From: a virus
IMG/VR virus record: IMGVR_UViG_3300034062_007872
Coordinates: 1-51,207 of that record
Length of the DNA: 51,207 nucleotides
Reading direction: 5' to 3' (one strand)
Position numbers and translations under genes: made by a program. The notes under the pieces are model-generated. The model had not been told where the DNA came from and ran no database searches. It saw only the letters and a list, made by a program, of their open reading frames with translations. Of the stretch, positions 1 to 14,191 are shown piece after piece. Each line of letters opens with the position of its first letter. The stretch's first letter is position 1.

Positions 1-96
1 GCTTATGTGCTGAATGCCGAGCAAGTTCCCGGTGAAACCGTGGTTCGCCCCGGTGAAGTGTATCGCGGAGTGATCACCTCCGAGAGCAAGGGCTGA
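1..96 (+). CDS. 3' end of a small protein, possibly ubiquitin-like (partial)
   Basis: Only the last 31 codons are in the window; the frame is open from base 1 to a TGA. The visible end reads like the last strand of a beta-grasp protein: a segment VLNAEQVPGETVV, then RPGEVYRGV, then a short tail ending Ser-Lys-Gly. A C-terminal Gly after a flexible tail is what ubiquitin-like and ThiS/MoaD-like proteins need for activation. The next three genes are JAB protease, E2-like and E1-like, so a ubiquitin-like partner is expected here. This is inference from a fragment; it could be an unrelated protein. A perfect hairpin separates it from the next gene. Confidence 0.4.
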   Translation, partial: AYVLNAEQVPGETVVRPGEVYRGVITSESKG

Positions 97-109
97 TTAC
101 CCGATCTCA

Positions 110-130
110 GGCCCTAGAAATTCTAGGGCC
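110..130 (+). terminator. Hairpin between the partial gene and the JAB gene
   Basis: GGCCCTAG (110-117) and CTAGGGCC (123-130) form a perfect 8 bp stem around a 5-base loop. A pyrimidine-rich stretch rather than a clean T-run follows, so termination may be partial. Confidence 0.5.
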
Positions 131-153
131 ACAACACACTCTTTCTCTTCTTT

Positions 154-1116
154 ATGGAACATCAAATTCTACGAACAGCAAACAACGGGTGTTTTGAGCT
201 TTATACTGGTGGCTGGGGTACTTATCTCCGGCAGATTGATGATCCAGATGCCAATGTTATCATTGATAAAAATGATCTAGAAACCTTTACTCTTAAGGAA
301 GACATTCATCGAATTCCGGCAAGTCTTTGGCAGCGTTGGGTTCAACTTTGTTTTCACTTTGTCGAAAAGGTTCCTTCTGATGTAGAAGTTTCCATCAGGA
401 TTCTTCGCAGTGAAGAAGATCCTTCTGTTTATCGGATTGTTGTACCGAAACAGAAAGTTTCTGCGGCATCTGTAAGGGTTAATAGTTTTCATGATGCTAT
501 CGACATTGAATCTGGTGAAGAGATTACCCAATTCCCTCCTATTGGATGGATTCCTGTTGGTAGTTCTCACAGCCACAACACCATGCAAGCGTTCTTTAGT
601 GGAACCGATGATAAGTATGAACTTGGCGATCCGGGTATTCATATTGTTGTTGGATCCATTGATGTAGATAAAAGGACGTATCGACTCAAGGCATCTGTTG
701 TTGCTAATGGTCGAAGGTTTGATGTTGAACATAGTAAAATCATTGATTGTGATCCAATTGAAGGCGCGACTTTCCATAAAGATGTTCTCAATTATGTTGA
801 TTACACTCGTCCAGTAGTTCATCATAAAAATGCAACTACTTTTCAATCTTTTCAACCTAAAAGTAATCAAAACTTTTATTCTCATGATTACAAATCGCCT
901 TTTGGATTTTCAGATGAAATCGATTTTACGGAAGAATATTACCGAGAATTCTTTGGTGAGACCGAAGTAACAAAAACCGAACCACTTAAATTATGGCAAA
1001 TCGAGGACGTTATTGAGGACTACATCAAACAAAACAGGGGAAATGTTGAAGAAATTCAAGAACTGATTTCTCTGCTTTCGGTTTATGTTGAAGAGCACAG
1101 TGAACTTTCCATTTAA
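154..1116 (+). CDS. JAB/JAMM-domain metalloprotease (PRTRC protein A-like)
   Basis: 320 residues. The zinc site of JAMM isopeptidases is complete: His139-Ser-His141, seven residues, Ser149, two residues, Asp152 (HxH-x7-S-xx-D). A Glu for catalysis would be expected upstream; Glu71 or Glu78 are candidates. JAB enzymes of this kind cleave ubiquitin-like proteins from conjugates or trim their C-terminus. The C-terminal third, after about residue 220, has no motif I recognise. The gene is followed after 2 bases by the E2-like gene and then the E1-like gene, the order known from bacterial PRTRC and related ubiquitin-like cassettes. The domain is clear; the substrate is inferred from neighbours. 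Confidence 0.75.
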   Translation: MEHQILRTANNGCFELYTGGWGTYLRQIDDPDANVIIDKNDLETFTLKEDIHRIPASLWQRWVQLCFHFVEKVPSDVEVSIRILRSEEDPSVYRIVVPKQKVSAASVRVNSFHDAIDIESGEEITQFPPIGWIPVGSSHSHNTMQAFFSGTDDKYELGDPGIHIVVGSIDVDKRTYRLKASVVANGRRFDVEHSKIIDCDPIEGATFHKDVLNYVDYTRPVVHHKNATTFQSFQPKSNQNFYSHDYKSPFGFSDEIDFTEEYYREFFGETEVTKTEPLKLWQIEDVIEDYIKQNRGNVEEIQELISLLSVYVEEHSELSI

Positions 1117-1118
1117 TC

Positions 1119-2135
1119 ATGAACAACCCTATTTTTCCAACTCAACCTGCAACAGTTAGTTTACATCCGGTCCCAACCCAGGCCGAATTCATTTCTTATC
1201 TTGTTGGCCCGGATACTATGACGATCCGGGCATGGATGCCAGATAATTATTCTTCCTTTGAAGATCATAATTCCCTGGGTAGGGCATATGACGATTTTTA
1301 TTGTAGGAATTGTAGTGAATGTCCAAGAACTTATCGAAGGTTTTATGAAAAAAATCACCCAGAGCTTTTTGACGAGAATAGTCATTGGGTAAGTGGGGCT
1401 TTTGACGCATTTACCAGAGACAATCCGGACGAATGTTTTGTTTACATGAATGGTTATAATGGTCAAAATTGTCCTCTAGGGATCAAGTTTGAAGGACCAA
1501 AATCAATAACTTGCTCTATCTCAAACATGGTTTTTGACATTCAGTTGTCACACAAGGGCCAATTCAAAAAGTATACAGACAACGCACATCTTCAGGCCGG
1601 TTATGTAAATGAATCTGGTGAGGTCTATGAGACTAATCCACGTTCTGCCGCAAATGTTTATTCCGGGGTTGCTGATTCAGATGGGTATATCTATGGCAAA
1701 ATTTGTTGGAACTCTATTGAGGATCCAACAACCTTGCGCGAGATTGTAACGTCCTACTTTGGATCTGAATTTAATAATGATCTCTTGAGACTCAGCAGTT
1801 TTAAGACCAACATTGGTGCAATAAGGGGTTACAAAGAAGAAAACAAATATAAAAAATCTAACCATAAATTTCTGTGCTCTGGTTATGACTGTCTGCTTAT
1901 GATTGATGGGAGCAAGGACGTTCAGGCCTTCTTTACAATGTTGATGGCCGGATTTAAGTCTTTGCCAGAACTCCCCCACATTATGATTGTTCCGGCAAAA
2001 ACCTCAACAATCAAACAAGGAGATATGATTTATTTGGGTTATACTACACAGGAAGATGCTGTTGGTAGGTCTTGGTACATCTCAACCGAAGGTGCCATTA
2101 TCGGCCAGCTCGACGAATCCTTTGTGACAGTCTGA
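1119..2135 (+). CDS. Prokaryotic E2-like protein (PRTRC protein B-like), tentative
   Basis: 338 residues, starting 2 bases after the JAB stop. The C-terminal half contains a segment GKICWNSIEDPTTLREIV followed by a Phe-Gly-Ser-Glu-Phe stretch. This recalls the Cys-Trp motif and following helix of PRTRC protein B, which the family literature groups with E2-like folds (Prok-E2_D). The N-terminal half has a CxxC-type cluster (CRNCSEC) that could bind metal. Position between a JAB protease and a ThiF enzyme supports an E2-like role in carrying a ubiquitin-like protein. The match is from memory and weak at sequence level; the gene itself is certain. Confidence 0.5.
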   Translation: MNNPIFPTQPATVSLHPVPTQAEFISYLVGPDTMTIRAWMPDNYSSFEDHNSLGRAYDDFYCRNCSECPRTYRRFYEKNHPELFDENSHWVSGAFDAFTRDNPDECFVYMNGYNGQNCPLGIKFEGPKSITCSISNMVFDIQLSHKGQFKKYTDNAHLQAGYVNESGEVYETNPRSAANVYSGVADSDGYIYGKICWNSIEDPTTLREIVTSYFGSEFNNDLLRLSSFKTNIGAIRGYKEENKYKKSNHKFLCSGYDCLLMIDGSKDVQAFFTMLMAGFKSLPELPHIMIVPAKTSTIKQGDMIYLGYTTQEDAVGRSWYISTEGAIIGQLDESFVTV

Positions 2136-2204
2136 GTACTGTCCATTACTCTACTCCATTAGACCAATTCTCGTTTAACATAACAAAGTAGTTCACCTAG
2201 ACTC

Positions 2205-2918
2205 ATGAATTTCAATCCTGATACAGTTTTCATTATTGGTGTTGGTGGAACTGGCGGTTATCTCGCTGCCCCCATTGCCAGGCTTGTTGCTTATCATCAG
2301 GCAACCCAAGATGCCAAGGTTGTTTTTATTGATGGTGATGAATTTGAGGAGCATAATGCTACTCGTCAAATTGTCGGACCATCGCAAATTGGTCTGAACA
2401 AGGCCAAGGCAATGGTTGATTTTTGTTCTTTCCAGGGCCTTAACAACGTTGAATGTAAAGAAGACTTTATTTCAATGACTTCTTTTATTCCTCTTTTGAA
2501 TCAATCAAGGACTCCTCTTATTATCTGTTCGGTCGATAATGATGCAACCCGACATGATGTAATCGCGGCAATTGAAATGGCCTGTAAGGAAAAAGATTTC
2601 TTCTTTATTACTCCGGGTAATTCTGATGGAATCGAGGATGTGAAGGGCCAGACACTCTGGTTTGGTCGGTGTAATGGCGAAAGTGTAGGAATGGATCCGA
2701 CTCTTGTTTATCCCAACATTAAAGAGCCGATTGATAGCGTCCCACATAAAGGATCTTGCGCTCTTAATGCCCCCTCTCGCCCTCAATTGATTTCGGCCAA
2801 CTTTATGGCCGCCGCGATTACTCTCACTGTGATTCAGAACTTCCTTGATGGTATGCTGGATCATAAAAAAAGCGGCATGTTCTTCAATGGCCGCACCCTG
2901 ATCACCTCTATTTCCTGA
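2205..2918 (+). CDS. ThiF/E1-like adenylating enzyme
   Basis: 237 residues. Residues 8-20 form the ThiF nucleotide-binding loop (FIIGVGGTGGYL). It is followed by Asp43-Gly-Asp45, then Asn51-Ala-Thr-Arg54-Gln55, the arginine finger and Asn of E1 enzymes, and by the lysines of IGLNKAKAM. These enzymes adenylate the C-terminal Gly of a ubiquitin-like or ThiS-like protein. The end (GSCALNAP...QLISANFMAAA) resembles PRTRC ThiF proteins. It is shorter than eukaryotic E1 and has no ubiquitin-fold domain, as usual in bacteria. A promoter-like stretch with TTTAACAT lies in the 69-base gap before it, so it may be transcribed separately as well. Confidence 0.85.
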   Translation: MNFNPDTVFIIGVGGTGGYLAAPIARLVAYHQATQDAKVVFIDGDEFEEHNATRQIVGPSQIGLNKAKAMVDFCSFQGLNNVECKEDFISMTSFIPLLNQSRTPLIICSVDNDATRHDVIAAIEMACKEKDFFFITPGNSDGIEDVKGQTLWFGRCNGESVGMDPTLVYPNIKEPIDSVPHKGSCALNAPSRPQLISANFMAAAITLTVIQNFLDGMLDHKKSGMFFNGRTLITSIS

Positions 2919-2925
2919 ATTTATT

Positions 2926-3261
2926 ATGACTACCACTACTGAAACTGCCCTGGTCAACGTTAACGATCAATTGGTTGAGTTTGCTAACCTTTTGAATGCC
3001 CTTCGCTATCTTTATGAAGAAATTCAGACTGCAAAACCAGATACGACTTCGATGGATAAGGCAGTCGAGGAATACTTTAAGTCCGAACCATTCTCAAAGA
3101 GAATGACTACTTATCTGAAACGCTATCAGATCCCAGCAATGACTGAAATGGTTTCGACCGATATCAAAAATAGTCTGGATTCTCAACTTGAGAATTACAT
3201 CTTGGCCAAGCTGGATGATCGAATTGAGCATGTCCTGAGGACACGACTGGGCCGGTCTTGA
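2926..3261 (+). CDS. Small helical protein of unknown function
   Basis: 111 residues, 7 bases after the ThiF stop and therefore probably co-transcribed with it. Predominantly helical, with alternating Leu and charged residues (NLLNALRYLYEEIQ; SLDSQLENYILAKLDDRIEHVLRTRL) and no Cys. No family recognised. Its position at the end of the ubiquitin-like cassette makes it a candidate accessory subunit or target, but nothing in the sequence shows this. Confidence 0.7.
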   Translation: MTTTTETALVNVNDQLVEFANLLNALRYLYEEIQTAKPDTTSMDKAVEEYFKSEPFSKRMTTYLKRYQIPAMTEMVSTDIKNSLDSQLENYILAKLDDRIEHVLRTRLGRS

Positions 3262-3313: not shown

Positions 3314-3335
3314 TCGGGGGCAAGGGAGCCCCCGA
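3314..3335 (+). other. Perfect 8 bp hairpin in the leader
   Basis: TCGGGGGC (3314-3321) and GCCCCCGA (3328-3335) form a perfect GC-rich stem with a 6-base loop. It lies between the candidate promoter and the start codon and lacks a T-run, so it may be an attenuator, an mRNA-stabilising hairpin or a weak terminator of the upstream operon. Confidence 0.5.
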
Positions 3336-3361
3336 AATTCACTCTCAATCATTTTCTTATT

Positions 3362-3640
3362 ATGGATCGCGCCACAAACATCCGAGAATTTCTCCAGGCA
3401 TCCGGGTCTACGATTGTTAATGTCCGTTTTAGGAAAAAGAACGGCGAAATGCGTAGCCTGTGTTTCAATCCCAAGGATCGTCAGGAAATTGTGGGGGGAT
3501 CCCCTTCTACCACCAATCCTGATATTATCCGGGTAAGAGATTTCAAGATTGCAAAAGAGCAAGGCGAAAAGGCCTGGCGGTCTTTTGATGTCAATCGGGT
3601 CATCAGCATCACTTCCAACGGTCAACGTTTTGAGTTCTGA
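3362..3640 (+). CDS. Small SH3-like phage protein (DUF2693-like)
   Basis: 92 residues with the start at 3362; an in-frame ATG at 3305 is rejected because it would place the GC-rich hairpin inside the gene. The pattern is an N-terminal helix (ATNIREFLQAS), a strand pair around FRKKNGEMRSLCFNP, and near the end AWRSFDVNRVISI. It resembles the small SH3-like barrel proteins common in phages and annotated DUF2693, whose hallmark is a Trp-Arg-Ser-Phe followed by Val/Ile-Ser-Ile. Function unknown in the family. The next gene starts 3 bases after its stop. Confidence 0.65.
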   Translation: MDRATNIREFLQASGSTIVNVRFRKKNGEMRSLCFNPKDRQEIVGGSPSTTNPDIIRVRDFKIAKEQGEKAWRSFDVNRVISITSNGQRFEF

Positions 3641-3643
3641 ATC

Positions 3644-4015
3644 ATGAACCAACAAATCAAACAACAATGGATTGAGGCTCTCCGCAGCGGAGAGTATTCA
3701 CAAGCACAGGAAGAACTTAGAGTTGGTGATTCTTTCTGTTGTCTTGGGGTTTTGTGTGATCTTTATGGTAAGAGCAAAGGAGCCAATTTCTGGAAAGAAA
3801 CAACGCAAAAATCTGGTTATTATTATTTTGAATCGCTTCCAGAACAATATGAGTATGGAACTCTCCCCATAAATGTCTCTGAATGGGCCGGTTTGGGTGG
3901 AATAGATATTCCTGTTGTGGAATACGGTGAACAAAAAACGGCCATTTCCGATCTAAACGACAAAGAACAACTCTCATTTAACCAAATCGCGGCTATTATT
4001 GAGGAACAACTTTAA
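3644..4015 (+). CDS. Conserved phage protein with FCCLGVLCDLY motif
   Basis: 123 residues. It has the features of a widespread phage family of unknown function: N-terminal WIEALRSGEYSQAQEELR, then SFCCLGVLCDLYG, a middle LP.NVSEWAGL, and a C-terminal LNDKEQLSFNQIAAIIEEQ. The SFxxIAxxIE ending and the Cys-Cys motif are both present, so it looks intact. It ends immediately before a strong terminator. Confidence 0.75.
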   Translation: MNQQIKQQWIEALRSGEYSQAQEELRVGDSFCCLGVLCDLYGKSKGANFWKETTQKSGYYYFESLPEQYEYGTLPINVSEWAGLGGIDIPVVEYGEQKTAISDLNDKEQLSFNQIAAIIEEQL

Positions 4016-4023
4016 CTTAATTA

Positions 4024-4047
4024 CCCCTCTTTATGAGGGGCTTTTTT
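4024..4047 (+). terminator. Strong intrinsic terminator
   Basis: CCCCTC (4024-4029) and GAGGGG (4035-4040) form a stem with a 5-base loop, followed by C and six T. It closes the operon that starts upstream. Confidence 0.85.
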
Positions 4048-4050
4048 GTA

Positions 4051-4057
4051 CTAAATA
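4051..4057 (+). promoter_or_regulatory. T4-type late promoter motif CTAAATA
   Basis: CTAAATA directly follows the terminator and lies 22 bases before the start codon at 4079. It matches the late-promoter variant seen elsewhere in the window in front of virion genes (24528, 38827) and suggests that the two genes behind it are expressed late. Confidence 0.55.
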
Positions 4058-4078
4058 ATCAATAAACAATCAAAAAAC

Positions 4079-4387
4079 ATGGAAGAAATTGTTTCTTTTC
4101 TAATCAATGAAGGTTACGCCGATGATTATAGGGCCGCATCTAAAATTTATGAGGTCATGAGCGACGAATGGTTGGATTTTATTCTTTGTGAGGAACCTAG
4201 ATCCAAGGCCGACAGAGAATTTTTGGCCCAAAGAAGGAGAAATTTTCAAACGGGCAAAGGGCCTAATTGGCCTTATGGTGATAAAAAGGCCAATTATGAT
4301 TCGCCATCAACTGGTATAGTTGCAACCGGAGATTCTCAGTCTGCCCCCACTAGAAAAAAGAAAAAACTAACTTTTGAAGTAAGATGA
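4079..4387 (+). CDS. EGYA...MSDEWL-domain protein, probable late gene
   Basis: 102 residues. The N-terminal 40 residues (FLINEGYADDYRAASKIYEVMSDEWLDFIL) are clearly related to a segment of the minus-strand gene 23950-24489 (LVSEGYVNNYDSAACILEAMSDEWLAGIL). That gene sits in an operon of probable packaged proteins. The rest is basic and low complexity, ending TRKKKKLTFEVR. A CTAAATA late promoter precedes it, and its stop overlaps the next start (ATGA). Likely a virion-associated or internal protein; function unknown. Confidence 0.65.
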   Translation: MEEIVSFLINEGYADDYRAASKIYEVMSDEWLDFILCEEPRSKADREFLAQRRRNFQTGKGPNWPYGDKKANYDSPSTGIVATGDSQSAPTRKKKKLTFEVR

Positions 4388-4743
4388 GCCAAAGATCACA
4401 AGAAATAATTAAAAGAATCCAAAAAGCCTCAAAAAAAGCCGGAGATCCTGAACTAGACCTAAACCGCAATCAAGTCGAGGCCGAAAGACAAAAAGTAATG
4501 AAGACTTTTAAAGAATTTGTTGAGTCGGTATTTGCTCCAGGGGAAACCAGTTATGGTGATCCAAAATATCAAGAAAGACTAGCAAAGAAAAGAGAAGAAG
4601 AGAAGAAGAAAAAAGAGGCCGAACAAAAATCTAAACATGATGAATTATATAAAGAGAGAAAGCATGGAAGGGGAATTAGAGCGACTAAAGATGGTGTAAA
4701 AGGCTGGATCAAAAACAAAATTTTTACTCCTGGCGATTGGTGA
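4384..4743 (+). CDS. Basic, coiled-coil protein with internal capsid-targeting-like motif
   Basis: 119 residues, very rich in Lys, Arg and Glu; residues 70-95 form a highly charged helix (EEEKKKKEAEQKSK). Residues 39-48 read MKTFKEFVES, nearly the same as the MKTYKEF leader of the packaged proteins at 22274-23953 and of T4 internal proteins. The upstream ATG at 4384 overlaps the previous stop (ATGA), which supports it. The ATG at 4498 would place the leader exactly at the N-terminus but has no obvious ribosome binding site. Either way a packaged internal protein is the best guess. Confidence 0.6.
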   Translation: MSQRSQEIIKRIQKASKKAGDPELDLNRNQVEAERQKVMKTFKEFVESVFAPGETSYGDPKYQERLAKKREEEKKKKEAEQKSKHDELYKERKHGRGIRATKDGVKGWIKNKIFTPGDW

Positions 4744-4759
4744 TAGACACCTAAACAAC

Positions 4760-4802
4760 TGGCACAAACACCAGACCAAACACGTCAAACTCACCTTAAA
4801 AT
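4760..4802 (+). promoter_or_regulatory. TGGCACAA box plus -10 (TAAAAT)
   Basis: TGGCACAA at 4760-4767 and TAAAAT at 4797-4802; the two starts are 37 bases apart, the same spacing as at 7937, 15643 and 16832. It precedes the gene at 4826. Confidence 0.45.
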
Positions 4803-4825
4803 AAGAACGAATTACAAATTCCATT

Positions 4826-4987
4826 ATGTTACCCCAAGAGCTTAGGTCCGTTCTTAAAGAAATTGAACACGAGAATCGCCGCATAGAACTCAGGAAAACC
4901 TTTTTGGAAAAAGGTGTAAAGTTTTATGACAAAGATGGCTGGGGGTATATCAAGAATGGTATAAAAAATTATGTTGAACGAACATGA
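4826..4987 (+). CDS. Small unknown protein
   Basis: 53 residues: MLPQELRSVLKEIEHENRR, then a short segment FYDKDGWGYIKNGIKNYVE. Helical N-terminus and an aromatic, glycine-containing C-terminal part. No family recognised. Its TGA overlaps the ATG of the first LRV gene (ATGA), which argues that it is translated and coupled to it. Confidence 0.55.
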   Translation: MLPQELRSVLKEIEHENRRIELRKTFLEKGVKFYDKDGWGYIKNGIKNYVERT

Positions 4988-5247
4988 AACACGAACAAAA
5001 ACTAAAAGCCGCAAGAGATCCAAACACTTCTCCTGAAATTCTAGAAACTCTGGCGTCTGATGGAAACTGGAATGTTCGCTACTGGGTTGCACGAAACCCG
5101 AATACATCCATAAAAATTCTAGAACTCTTGGCGACTGATGAAGATTATATTGTTCGATCATGGGTTCCACACCATCCAAATAGAACAAAAATTATAGAAA
5201 GGCTAGTTCTCATGACAGACTACAAACTGTCCACTGCCGCCAACTAA
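4984..5247 (+). CDS. LRV-repeat protein, paralogue 1
   Basis: 87 residues: an 11-residue N-cap (MKHEQKLKAAR), about two and a half 26-residue repeats of the form NPNTSxxxLExLAtDxxxxVRxxVAR, and a C-cap (NRTKIIERLVLMT). This is the leucine-rich-variant (LRV) repeat, an all-helical solenoid related to HEAT/armadillo repeats. The FeS-binding Cys cluster of the Azotobacter founder protein is absent. The solenoid suggests protein binding; the target is unknown. One of six paralogues in 9.2 kb. Confidence 0.8.
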   Translation: MKHEQKLKAARDPNTSPEILETLASDGNWNVRYWVARNPNTSIKILELLATDEDYIVRSWVPHHPNRTKIIERLVLMTDYKLSTAAN

Positions 5248-5295: not shown

Positions 5296-6054
5296 ATGCA
5301 AATCACTTCTGATATTCTCAACAAGCCGTCCATCAAAAAGCATTATGGTCAAAAGATTGTTTCGGGTTATCCTGAGGCCCTGATTGATTTTGAAAAGACG
5401 GTTTTTACCAAAAATATCGAGACTCTTAAAAAAATTTGGCCGTATCTCTCTTTTGATCTGATCCTTAATAATATTGATTGGCTTGAGATCCTGCCACTGA
5501 ACCTTACTGATACTCATAATGATTGGCTGATCCAAAATATCAAGCCCCAATCATTCCTTAATATGATCAACCAGCACTACACCAAAGTTGGTTGTATTTC
5601 TATTTCTACTTTTATCAAAGACACATTTGAGCAGCTTGAAAAACTAATCAAACAGAAGGTAACAGTAGATCCCCCTAAAAGGTGGAGGTTGATTGATTTT
5701 CATGATCACGTTTCTTATCTTTATCTAAAGAACAATACCAAAAACAATAAACTTCAGACAATTATTGATCCTTATAAAAAGGAAGGTTATCTACTGTCCC
5801 AGCCAAAAGAGTCCATTGAGATCATTATCTGGGGTAAAAAGGTAAAGAATTGTGTGGCATCTTATGAGGAGCGAATTGGCGAATCTATCTGGATTTTCTT
5901 TATTGAAAAGGACGGGGTTCCTCTTTATACTGTAGAAACTGATATGGAACATTATCACATCAAACAGATTGTTTCTCAATGTAATGGTTCTGTTGATCAG
6001 GCCGGTAGAGATTTTGCCCAGGCCCTTATTATGAAGGCGGTTGGTAAGAAGTGA
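5296..6054 (+). CDS. PcfJ-like protein
   Basis: 252 residues. The C-terminal 90 residues show the PcfJ-like signature: EGYLLSQPKESIEIIIWGKKVKNCVASYEERI, followed by IWIFFIEKDGVPLYTVET and KQIVSQCNGSV. That is a conserved Cys in NCV-x-SY, a TvE strand and a Q-x-x-N/CNG turn. PcfJ was named from an enterococcal conjugative plasmid; similar proteins are common in phages and mobile elements, with no firmly established activity. The N-terminal 110 residues are helical and unrelated to anything I recognise. The LRV gene starts 8 bases after its stop. Confidence 0.65.
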   Translation: MQITSDILNKPSIKKHYGQKIVSGYPEALIDFEKTVFTKNIETLKKIWPYLSFDLILNNIDWLEILPLNLTDTHNDWLIQNIKPQSFLNMINQHYTKVGCISISTFIKDTFEQLEKLIKQKVTVDPPKRWRLIDFHDHVSYLYLKNNTKNNKLQTIIDPYKKEGYLLSQPKESIEIIIWGKKVKNCVASYEERIGESIWIFFIEKDGVPLYTVETDMEHYHIKQIVSQCNGSVDQAGRDFAQALIMKAVGKK

Positions 6055-6062
6055 ATATTATT

Positions 6063-6647
6063 ATGGGGTATAATCGAAAAGCAATTGACGCACAAGATCC
6101 AAACACATCATCAAAAACCCTAGAAATTCTGGCAACTGATAAAAATGATTATGTTCGCGCCCACGTTGCAGAAAACCCGAATACTCCACAAAACACCCTA
6201 GAACTTCTGGCGACTGATAAAGATTCTGATATTCGCTACAAGGTTGCACGAAACCCAAACACCCCACCAGAATCCCTAAAACTCCTTGCAACTGATAAAG
6301 ATTCTGATATTCGCTACTGTGTTGCACGAAACCCAAACATGCCACAAGAATCCCTAGAACTCCTTGCAACTGATAAAGATTATCGTGTTCGCTATTGGGT
6401 TGCAAAAAACCCAAACACGCCACAAGAATCCCTAGAACTCCTTGCAACTGATAAAGATTCTAGTGTTCGCGCCTGTGCTGCAAACAACTCAAACATCACA
6501 CCAGAAACTCTCCAACAACTAGCGACTGATATGAGTTGTTTTGTTCGTGATATTGTTGCACAAAACCCAAACCGAACCGAACTTATCGAAAGACTGGTTC
6601 TTATGACAAATTATCAACTGGCACAGGCCGCCGACCCAACCACATAA
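6063..6647 (+). CDS. LRV-repeat protein, paralogue 2 (six repeats)
   Basis: 194 residues from the ATG at 6063. An earlier in-frame GTG at 6051 is rejected because the ATG gives exactly the 11-residue N-cap seen in paralogues 1 and 4. Six 26-residue repeats (NPNTPQESLELLATDKDSxxRYxVAR) are followed by the shared C-cap NPNRTELIERLVLMT. At the DNA level neighbouring 78 bp units are almost identical, which shows recent repeat duplication. A scaffold or decoy that binds a protein is plausible; nothing shows an enzyme. Confidence 0.8.
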   Translation: MGYNRKAIDAQDPNTSSKTLEILATDKNDYVRAHVAENPNTPQNTLELLATDKDSDIRYKVARNPNTPPESLKLLATDKDSDIRYCVARNPNMPQESLELLATDKDYRVRYWVAKNPNTPQESLELLATDKDSSVRACAANNSNITPETLQQLATDMSCFVRDIVAQNPNRTELIERLVLMTNYQLAQAADPTT

Positions 6648-8162: not shown

Positions 8163-8564
8163 ATGTTTTACTTTTTTCCTGATAAAGAGACTTTGCAAAA
8201 AGGATCTGCAGCAGAAAACCCTAGCACGAAACCGGAAACGCTAGAACAACTAGCGAGCGATGAACATCCTTATGTTCGCCGTTGCGTTGCAAGAAACCCT
8301 AACACATCACAAAAAGTGTTACAACTCTTGGCGTGTGATGGAGATTGGGTAGTTCGCAATTATGTTGCCGAAAACCCGAACAAAAACTATGTTATCGAAA
8401 GACTTCTCGATATGACGGAAAAGGTTTGTGGAAACAAAGAAACTCCTATTGAATCTTTTGATACCTTTGAGTTTTATACATTCTTGAACGTGGCTAGTGT
8501 GGAAGAACTAGAAGGCAATTATCTTAAACCAGAAACCCTGACCCAAATTCTTACAACAAAATGA
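8163..8564 (+). CDS. LRV-repeat protein, paralogue 3, with C-terminal extension
   Basis: 133 residues. An atypical N-cap (MFYFFPDKETLQKGSAAEN) leads into two LRV repeats (KPETLEQLASDEHPYVRRCVAR; SQKVLQLLACDGDWVVRNYVAE) and a C-cap (NPNKNYVIERLLDMT). About 45 residues absent from the other paralogues follow (TFEFYTFLNVASVEELEG...). The gene lies between two copies of a 23 bp repeat, suggesting arrival by recombination. Confidence 0.75.
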   Translation: MFYFFPDKETLQKGSAAENPSTKPETLEQLASDEHPYVRRCVARNPNTSQKVLQLLACDGDWVVRNYVAENPNKNYVIERLLDMTEKVCGNKETPIESFDTFEFYTFLNVASVEELEGNYLKPETLTQILTTK

Positions 8565-8916: not shown

Positions 8917-9099
8917 ATGACAAACATCATTCCTATCCGCATGATTAACACCAACGAACTGGATCACGAAATTCTGATGAACTCGGCCCAATCATGGATG
9001 AATCATTATAATTTTCTCCTTTCCCTTTCTATCTGGGATGACCAACAGCGTAGGGCATTTCAGGGTGAGTTTAATTTCAATAAGGTTTATGATGTTTGA
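8917..9099 (+). CDS. Small unknown protein
   Basis: 60 residues, 10 bases after the previous stop. MTNIIPIRMINTNELDHEIL followed by an aromatic stretch with three Trp (SWMNHYNFLLSLSIWDD). The last segment is FQGEFNFNKVYDV. No family recognised. The LRV gene starts 2 bases after its stop. Confidence 0.6.
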   Translation: MTNIIPIRMINTNELDHEILMNSAQSWMNHYNFLLSLSIWDDQQRRAFQGEFNFNKVYDV

Positions 9100-9101
9100 T
9101 T

Positions 9102-9590
9102 ATGAATTACCAACAAAAAGAGACCGCTGCAAACAACTCAAACACCACACCAGAAACTCTCCAACAACTAGCGACTGATAAAGATTCTTATGTTCGCTAC
9201 AAGGTTGCACGAAACCCAAACACCCCACCAGAAACTCTCCAACAACTAGCGACTGATAAAGATTCTTATGTTCGCTACGCCGTTGCACGAAACCCAAACA
9301 CACCACAAGAAACCCTACAACTCCTTGCAACAGATAAATATTCTAGTGTTCGCTACTGGGTTGCACAAGATCCAAACACGCCACCAGAAACCCTAGAAAT
9401 TCTGGCGACTGATAAAGATTTTGGTGTTCGCTACGCCGTTGCACAAAACCCAAACACACCACAAGAAACCCTACAACTCCTTGCAACAGATAAATATTCT
9501 AGTGTTCGCTACTGGGTTGCACAAAACCCAAACCGAACCGAACTTATAGAGAGGCTGGTTCTTATGACCAACCACAAACAGGACCAATGA
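9102..9590 (+). CDS. LRV-repeat protein, paralogue 4 (five repeats)
   Basis: 162 residues from ATG 9102, chosen over ATG 9096 because it restores the common 11-residue N-cap (MNYQQKETAAN). Repeats NPNTPPETLQQLATDKDSYVRYxVAR follow, then the C-cap NPNRTELIERLVLMT. Two adjacent 78 bp units near 9140-9290 are nearly identical, and a block of about 70 bases near 9300 recurs 156 bases later (two units). This gene therefore grew by duplication of one- and two-repeat blocks. It overlaps the next LRV gene by ATGA. Confidence 0.8.
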   Translation: MNYQQKETAANNSNTTPETLQQLATDKDSYVRYKVARNPNTPPETLQQLATDKDSYVRYAVARNPNTPQETLQLLATDKYSSVRYWVAQDPNTPPETLEILATDKDFGVRYAVAQNPNTPQETLQLLATDKYSSVRYWVAQNPNRTELIERLVLMTNHKQDQ

Positions 9591-13070: not shown

Positions 13071-13852
13071 TGTAGCATTATTGGCCCGCAAAATATAAAC
13101 AAAACATAAAGACTTTATAAAAAACAGAAAACCCCATAAAACCCCACAACAACCCATAAACGTATAATTCCACCAGAGGCTCCTAGGAGGCCCAGGAAGG
13201 CCCCTCTAAAACCCTAAACGGTTTCTGATACGTCAGAGCAAATTAAAGGCCTTCTAGGTGCCTTATCCAATTCCATAACTGTCCACCATTTCAACAATTT
13301 TTCCATAAGGGTGCTATCTTATAAAGGTGGTCGAGAGATCACATTCTATCGTTATTGCTAGATAAGGAAATTCTTTATGAGTTTCCTTTTTATTCGTAGG
13401 ATAGCAAAGTTGGACCAATGCGCCCACCTTACGGCATCAACGGTTTGTTTAAAAGAGTTCAACTCTCTTTATACCGAGTAAGTGGGAGATCGCGGGATCG
13501 TAGCCCGCTCCTACGATTTTAAGAACATAAAATACTAAATAATACAGTGAACAAATTGTTATTGTAATAAAGATCCCATAAAACCTCGGTTTCGGGCAAG
13601 TCTCCAAAGCAATTAACAATTATCTTTCGTTTATTTTGAACCTCTTAGTTGCTCCTACGGGATAAAGCATTAAAGTTCATAAGAAACAAAGAGCGTATTA
13701 TTTCAATTGAATAACAGGTTAGCCCCAGTTCTCAAAAATGAGAAACCTTTAGGGGTATTTTCAGTATGGGTGGACAGTTTATAAAGTGTCATAAGTACCT
13801 AACCAGACCTACCTAATTCTGTTTAAGATTAGATCAGTTCAGTATTTTTCTT
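13071..13852. other. Hairpin-rich region without a gene (about 780 bases)
   Basis: No convincing reading frame. Strong local structures: AGAGG/CCTCT enclosing smaller stems (13171-13207), TCTGA-TACG-TCAGA (near 13228), AAGGTGG/CCACCTT closing about 100 bases (13325-13432), AAGGAAA/TTTCCTT inside it (13365-13390), CGGT/ACCG around 13440-13475, and GCGGG/CCCGC overlapping ATCGTAG/CTACGAT (13494-13519). The density suggests a structured RNA. CTAAATA at 13535-13541 may be a late promoter. I cannot match it to tRNA, tmRNA, RNase P or a group I intron core. Confidence 0.4.
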
Positions 13853-14191
13853 ATGCTTGGCATTAATTATTATGAGATCCTTCGGTCCGATGCAATAGAT
13901 CCAAAAACACCAGTAGAAGAACTAGAGAAACTGGCGAACAGTGAATTTTATAATATCCGGTATTATGTTGCACAAAACCCTAATGTTACAGTAGAGATTC
14001 TGGAAAAATTGAGTAAAGATTATTGGCAAGTTGTTTATGCTGTTGCGTCAAATCCCACTGTAACTGACGAAATCCTAAGGAAATTAGTTCAACATAATAA
14101 TTCTATTGTTCGTAAGAAAGCGGCCGAACATCCTAATGCCTCAGAGATAACAAAAAGACTTTATCTTATGACAATTGCTAGAGTGTCATAA
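13853..14191 (+). CDS. LRV-repeat protein, paralogue 6 (most diverged)
   Basis: 112 residues: N-cap MLGINYYEILRSDAI, three repeats (TPVEELEKLANSEFYNIRYYVAQ; TVEILEKLSKDYWQVVYAVAS; TDEILRKLVQHNNSIVRKKAAE) and C-cap HPNASEITKRLYLMT. The repeats are not near-identical at DNA level, so this copy is older or under different selection. Its promoter region (AGACCTACCTAATTCTGTTTAAGAT, 13807-13831) resembles the one at 7491-7515. Confidence 0.75.
   Translation: MLGINYYEILRSDAIDPKTPVEELEKLANSEFYNIRYYVAQNPNVTVEILEKLSKDYWQVVYAVASNPTVTDEILRKLVQHNNSIVRKKAAEHPNASEITKRLYLMTIARVS

Follow-up and report, generated by a model that had tools for sequence, protein, structure and literature searches.

Can a phage carry its own pathway for attaching a ubiquitin-like protein to other proteins and for taking it off again? 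The question is raised by the first genes of the virus record IMGVR_UViG_3300034062_007872, a 51,207-base fragment with T4-like tail and neck genes that was analysed over its whole length (hereafter, the window). The initial annotation had claimed here a phage-borne cassette of a Gly-ending protein, a JAB protease, an E2-like and an E1-like protein, and these parts are present: open reading frames occupy positions 154-1116, 1119-2135 and 2205-2918, and the partial frame before them (1-96) ends in ...VITSESKG and a stop codon. The conserved block spans bases 1-3261 and comprises the end of the modifier gene, the JAB, E2-like and E1 genes and a gene for a small, predicted-helical protein; these genes, together with the hairpin, motifs and codons described within the block, are all on the plus strand.

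We consider it probable that the cassette encodes a reversible ubiquitin-like protein-conjugation pathway, a variant of PRTRC/type 6d. This reading is preferred because the JAMM residue set is invariant, the E1 exceeds its Pfam cut-off and has a UBA5-like cysteine, the E2-like protein is reached through a chain of profiles and has an invariant candidate cysteine (Cys196), and the modifier has a predicted ubiquitin-like fold. It is preferred also because nearly all viral cassettes include the E2, modifiers end in KG with tails of 0-2 amino acids, modifier units occur in tandem in other phages, and the cassette genes are under purifying selection.

Modifier, peptidase and activating enzyme

The ubiquitin-like modifier gene is represented in the window by its 3' end (1-96, stop codon 94-96), its start lying off the contig. 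The 31 visible residues, ending in ...RGVITSESKG, match the C-terminus of complete proteins in the relatives L005, L009, L011 and L007; complete modifiers of the closest relatives are 86-88 amino acids long and end in SESKG or similar. In the window clade the C-terminus is KG with a tail of 0-2 amino acids, which is what a JAB-matured precursor would show. Reading frames with this ending are concentrated upstream of JAB genes (55/1092, compared with 33/5066 in the rest of these loci; Fisher p=6e-21, an indicative value as related loci are not independent). The upstream protein, completed from its relatives, also has the predicted beta-grasp that was suspected from its last strand: the L005 copy is modelled by AlphaFold as a ubiquitin-type beta-grasp with a predicted local distance difference test (pLDDT) value of 81.8, and the best Protein Data Bank (PDB) matches of the model in Foldseek are UBL, SUMO, NEDD8 and ISG15, at template-modelling scores (TM-scores) of about 0.5-0.65. 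Matches of the modifier to solved structures were also sought by sequence, without success.

A strong hairpin (110-130, GGCCCTAGA-AAT-TCTAGGGCC, z=-4.4) lies between the modifier and JAB genes. Most relatives have a hairpin at the same position with an unrelated stem sequence, and some of these carry T runs and are terminator-like. The T tract of the window hairpin is weak and the terminator scan made no call on it; it is possibly a partial terminator.

The first complete gene (154-1116) encodes a PRTRC_A-like JAB/JAMM metallopeptidase of 320 amino acids. It matches Prok-JAB at E=2.4e-5 (24.6 bits, just under the curated cut-off of 25) and PRTRC_A at E=5e-6, below the strict cut-off. The JAMM pattern HxH-x7-S-x2-D is found at residues 139-152 (HSHNTMQAFFSGTD, 568-609; H139, H141, S149, D152), with Glu78 upstream. 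All five residues are invariant in nine divergent phage JABs, and again when phage JABs are aligned with six plasmid PRTRC_A proteins; the motif is intact, as first described. A conserved Trp and Arg of the PRTRC_A N-terminal domain align in most window-clade and bacterial rows.

The third complete gene (2205-2918) encodes a PRTRC_ThiF-like, ThiF-family E1-like adenylyltransferase of 237 amino acids, and the intact E1 signature ascribed to it holds: Pfam ThiF is matched at E=4.5e-8, over the cut-off. Against PRTRC_ThiF (TIGR03736) the match covers residues 7-205 at E=1.1e-12, with 47.8 bits vs a cut-off of 144.75; judged by this match the protein is a homologue of PRTRC_ThiF, not an equivalog. 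The best solved relatives by profile are UBA5, TcdA, MccB and the SUMO and NEDD8 E1 subunits. A candidate thioester cysteine, Cys185 (codon 2757-2759, in GSCAL), is invariant and aligns with the 'GVCA' segment of UBA5, whose cysteine is the catalytic one. ThiF enzymes likewise have a cysteine in this region, so Cys185 alone does not exclude a sulfur role.

Directly after the E1 is the gene for a small predicted-helical protein of 111 amino acids (2926-3261), a candidate fifth component. Its relatives directly follow the E1 in all 13 distinct members found, it was encountered nowhere but next to the cassette, and no match to it was seen in named phages. Between close relatives the five cassette genes are under purifying selection, with ratios of nonsynonymous to synonymous substitution (dN/dS) of 0.02-0.22 (0.06-0.10 for the 111-residue protein).

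Several relatives carry group I introns or homing-endonuclease-like frames in or near these genes. Group I introns (Rfam RF00028) split the JAB gene inside its JAMM motif at L005:6414-6654, L009:6414-6654, L109:4957-5193 and L116:4422-4695, after HSH in the first three and after HSHNTM in L116. In L005 and L009 the joined exons give an in-frame JAB; the window copy is without an intron. In L116 a LAGLIDADG-like frame (3676-4581) lies inside, and homing-endonuclease-like frames with GIY-YIG-like starts and repeated GG(K/R) lie inside or beside the cassette at L010:4931-5818, L010:8919-9917 and L005:4460-5515.

The E2-like protein and the recurrence of the cassette

The second complete gene (1119-2135) encodes a protein of 338 amino acids that is linked to Prok-E2_D and PRTRC_B by a profile-profile chain running through short E2s of other phages. 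In hhalign the window E2 clade is aligned with the short phage E2s at 97.4% probability (E 9e-12), the alignment covering the strands, the N...C motif and FNxDL. The short phage E2s in turn match plasmid PRTRC_B at 94% probability over 182 columns, and two short relatives match Prok-E2_D below the cut-off (3e-4); the direct profile link of the window clade to PRTRC_B is 21 columns only. Bacterial TH at 188-189 corresponds to N-x-D-L in the phages, the middle position being variable. Cys196 (codon 1704-1706, in KICW), the candidate active-site cysteine, is invariant in alignments. An insertion with four cysteines (1311-1472; C65, C68, C106, C118), possibly zinc-binding, falls in nearly invariant columns, is found in most of the window clade and is absent from the short phage E2s. 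The AlphaFold model is confident (pLDDT 88) and places strands, then the cysteine, then two helices. A PHROG match of this reading frame to terminase (E 0.0012) was judged spurious, being short, partial and contradicted by the profile-profile alignments.

The E2-like candidacy is therefore supported by profile homology, sub-threshold Prok-E2_D matches and the conserved N...C motif, and its other part, an E2 fold, was not found by Foldseek. As the model gave no match there, no structural claim is made and the protein is called E2-like by sequence.

The initial annotation had held that such a cassette would be unusual in a T4-like phage genome; it recurs in dozens of phage contigs. Within the loci fetched, and depending on the search patterns used, JAB and E1 are neighbours in 94 distinct cassettes, a number that is not a census. 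Viral contigs account for 59 of them, named phages for 4 and genome records of bacteria or archaea for 31. Of the 63 from viral contigs or named phages, 61 have a detected E2. The gene order had been equated with that of bacterial PRTRC operons, and this does not agree with the data: the operons on plasmids are arranged C-(F)-B(E2)-A(JAB)-ThiF, whereas the window has Ubl-JAB-E2-ThiF, an order shared by the window clade (18 loci). The plasmid-type order E2-JAB-E1 is found on 40 viral contigs and in three named phages. In the E1 tree the window falls among phage E1s, together with other loci having JAB before E2. Eight proteobacterial PRTRC plasmid E1s are separate and grouped with one viral contig, and the E1 of a Bacillus velezensis plasmid clusters with that of phage L141.

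Among these relatives are modifiers encoded head to tail. Bacillus phage KLEB27-3 has four Prok_Ub units in one protein with direct junctions (GVKG|M), the units matching Prok_Ub at 3.9e-27 and PRTRC_C over its cut-off. Two units are found in L031, L044 and L048, three in Vibrio phage D69, four in L141 as in KLEB27-3, and five in L033, and every unit ends in KG. Protein identity between units reaches 100% at a DNA identity of about 80%: units 2 and 3 of KLEB27-3 are identical in protein and differ at about 86% of synonymous sites, and the two L031 units are identical over the 62 residues compared, with a synonymous difference of about 63%; synonymous change between such units is thus close to saturation. 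Identical protein despite diverged DNA implies selection on each unit, as expected of a processed precursor, and these predicted precursors are a strong sign of polyubiquitin-like processing. Tandem modifiers were not seen in the window's own clade. On the 370-kb phage contig L029, two separate, unfused modifier genes ending in SHEQKG (3328-3612 and 4787-5086) stand about 1.2 kb apart.

The fragment belongs to a T4-like cyanophage, whose host is very probably a cyanobacterium because of neck protein matches and of photosystem and transfer-messenger RNA (tmRNA) genes in relatives. The neck protein shares 89.7% identity with its counterpart in Synechococcus phage B23, and its remaining best matches are cyanophages; a similar neck protein (65-89% identity) is present on 6/18 related contigs searched, the remaining contigs being mostly fragments. 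Photosystem reaction-centre genes are above cut-off in two relatives, and a related phage contig has a cyanobacterial-type tmRNA gene (L105:1624-1882; Rfam RF01851, 104.8 bits). Neither the window JAB nor the window E1 had a match in B23, the named phage with the closest neck protein, and the cassette is therefore probably accessory.

Other features recur around these loci. In an Oscillospiraceae-type group the gene immediately 3' of the E1 encodes a DnaN-like sliding clamp (L155:5530-6618, L156:8052-9185, L158:8283-9380, L164:8076-9185, L178:8046-9140, L012:1679-2761), and dnaN lies within 4-6 kb of the cassette on plasmids L184, L187 and L189. As none of the fetched viral-contig loci has DnaN as a neighbour, the clamp was dropped as a shared cassette neighbour; that it might be a modifier target, by analogy with eukaryotic PCNA, is offered as a thought. 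In phages with the order E2-JAB-E1, a small protein near or just before the E2 often terminates in a hydrophobic stretch, for example DFI, DFV or FFI (L031:5749-6003, L042:3949-4215, L044:5576-5839, L054:5504-5863, L058:4706-5023, L082:5570-5884).

Within the window, repeats of the form NPNTPxETLxxLATDKDxxVRxxVAxNPNT, HEAT-like in appearance, occur in five genes near the cassette (4984-5247, 6051-6647, 8163-8564, 9096-9590, 13853-14191). The element ACTGTCCA occurs five times, at 2138, 3263, 5226 and 13278 on the plus strand and at 13771 on the minus strand (1.07 expected; five reached in 0/100 shuffles). Several copies are directly 3' of cassette genes and some relatives have a related element 5' of the modifier gene; it is a possible phage promoter element. 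The promoter and terminator consensus scan of the window stayed at chance level.

A proposed pathway and its alternatives

In the conjugation pathway proposed here, the modifier would be made either with a short C-terminal tail or without one, or as a head-to-tail polymer in other phages, and the JAB would cut after Lys-Gly to leave a mature form ending in ...KG. The E1 would then adenylate the terminal glycine at the expense of ATP and probably hold the modifier on Cys185, from which a thioester relay would pass it to Cys196 of the E2-like protein and on to lysines of target proteins. The JAB, acting through its metal, would also remove attached modifier. The hairpin after the modifier gene may keep modifier in excess over the enzymes, and the four-cysteine E2 insertion and the fifth protein are the likeliest candidates for selecting targets. 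The likeliest role is to tag proteins of the host or of the phage in the course of infection. More broadly, we lean towards the view that a full reversible ubiquitin-like pathway is carried by large tailed phages whose hosts differ widely, in several lineages with a precursor of the polyubiquitin type, and serves to tag phage or host proteins in infection; it would be a viral ubiquitin system within prokaryotes that has E1, E2, peptidase and modifier of its own.

Several observations weigh against conjugation. One clade member, L111, has a modifier ending in SKQA rather than KG; no profile match of the window-clade modifier to PRTRC_C was obtained; and two clade modifiers, out of 15 modifiers compared, match ThiS (best E=0.0062), weak matches that would suit a sulfur carrier too, none of the 15 reaching the ThiS/MoaD family cut-off. 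The 1119-2135 protein itself has no credible family match in Pfam or NCBIfam, its model found no E2 and no other significant match in PDB or BFVD by Foldseek, and the downstream histidine of 6d E2s is not conserved in phage E2s.

The ThiS matches lead to a sulfur-carrier pathway, in which a ThiS/MoaD-like protein would be adenylated, thiocarboxylated and used to deliver sulfur, e.g. to tRNA or a metabolite, and the JAB would only trim the carrier. ThiS and MoaD proteins usually end in GG, whereas the modifier ends in KG. Conjugation is also favoured by the presence, in nearly all phage cassettes, of an E2-like protein whose cysteine is invariant, by the poly-modifier precursors of relatives and by the lack of any rhodanese or sulfurtransferase beside the cassettes read. 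We consider sulfur delivery unlikely on these grounds, even with two ThiS-matching modifiers, a ThiF-like E1 and the existence of JAB-ThiS/MoaD pairs (PMC1779556).

Counter-defence, with the modifier or JAB serving as decoy substrate or de-conjugase against host Bil, type II CBASS or Bub, is compatible with conjugation. Those defences employ enzymes of the same classes (PMC10097602, PMC11153139), and an accessory cassette of which B23 has no detected copy would fit such a use. However, a decoy or eraser needs no E1, E2 or five-gene conservation of its own, and beyond the E1 domain the proteins show no close relationship to those of CBASS or Bil; as the purpose of the cassette it seems improbable to us.

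It is also rather doubtful that the 1119-2135 product is an unrelated cysteine protein and that the modifier is activated and processed without E2-type transfer. Its lack of Pfam, NCBIfam and fold matches would be explained, but not its 97% profile probability to short phage proteins that themselves match Prok-E2_D (3e-4) and PRTRC_B. The N170-C178 spacing of these short E2s, moreover, equals the HPN...C motif spacing that is a feature of classical E2s. A decaying, functionless PRTRC remnant from a plasmid, as the accessory distribution and partial PRTRC gene set might suggest, is very improbable given strong purifying selection on all five genes, intact active sites and the position of the window E1 in the tree, with those of phages and away from the eight proteobacterial PRTRC plasmids.

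Discussion of ubiquitin-like conjugation in bacteria has until now centred on host defence or on plasmid biology; in this case writer, eraser and tag are encoded by a virus. No report of phage-borne versions was found in the literature searched, with preprints and many subscription journals outside the coverage. The conjugation pathway can be tested with a few purified proteins, and in cyanophages the cassette proteins are candidate infection factors of a new class. The phage group as a whole is also a source for studying how diverse polyubiquitin-like precursors and E2-like enzymes were early on.

Comparison with known systems

A phage-encoded ubiquitin-like protein with a JAB peptidase is known from Lambda/T1 tail assembly as TAPI with TAPK (PMC1779556); those are tail-assembly genes without E1 or E2, and the window has the full enzyme set. 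Bil, type II CBASS (Cap2/Cap3) and Bub are bacterial ubiquitin-like conjugation systems with E1, E2 and JAB-type enzymes (PMC10097602, PMC13373217). They share these enzyme classes with the window but belong to host defence or stress operons, and the window cassette is without a CD-NTase. PADLOC reported only E1-domain similarity in the window (E1-E2 2.9e-11, BilD 0.0024), and its library, which lacks a Bub model, gave no match for the window JAB, E2 or modifier. With eukaryotic polyubiquitin the tandem precursors of the relatives share head-to-tail units of identical protein and diverged DNA, joined directly at the C-terminal glycine. The phage precursors are unrelated to it, however, with units of 57-70 amino acids that end in KG and not GG, and their processor would be the phage JAB.

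Phages KLEB27-3 (vB_BauM_KLEB27-3 gp194-gp199), Vibrio D69, D148 and D181, and Salmonella Arash share with the window a phage-borne KG-ending modifier, E2-like protein, JAB and E1. They differ in having E2 before JAB, a short E2 without the cysteine insertion, other hosts and, in KLEB27-3 and D69, tandem modifiers. Their cassette proteins are annotated only as hypothetical, structural, or ThiF- or PRTRC_A-domain proteins; the 'structural protein' label on the Arash E1 is given without its basis, and no virion role was deduced from it.

The closest known kind of cassette is the bacterial PRTRC system, the type 6d operon of Iyer et al. 2006 (PMC1779556; NCBIfam TIGR03734-03742). Shared are an A-like JAB, a B-like E2, a ThiF-type E1, a small KG-ending protein with a predicted beta-grasp and the mobile-element class. 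The window cassette differs in having JAB before E2, in the four-Cys insertion of its E2, and in that the downstream histidine described as absolutely conserved in 6d E2s (Iyer et al., PMC1779556) is not conserved; the window modifier is unmatched to PRTRC_C by profile, and the window clade has its own fifth protein. PRTRC ParB, E and F were found in none of 13 phage records including the window, several of which, the window too, are fragments; the E model was positive on three plasmids and the F model had no positive control. Judged by its anatomy, with the E2 placed by sequence only, the window cassette would work like a ubiquitin-like conjugation pathway, and it is a PRTRC-like variant, not a PRTRC system.

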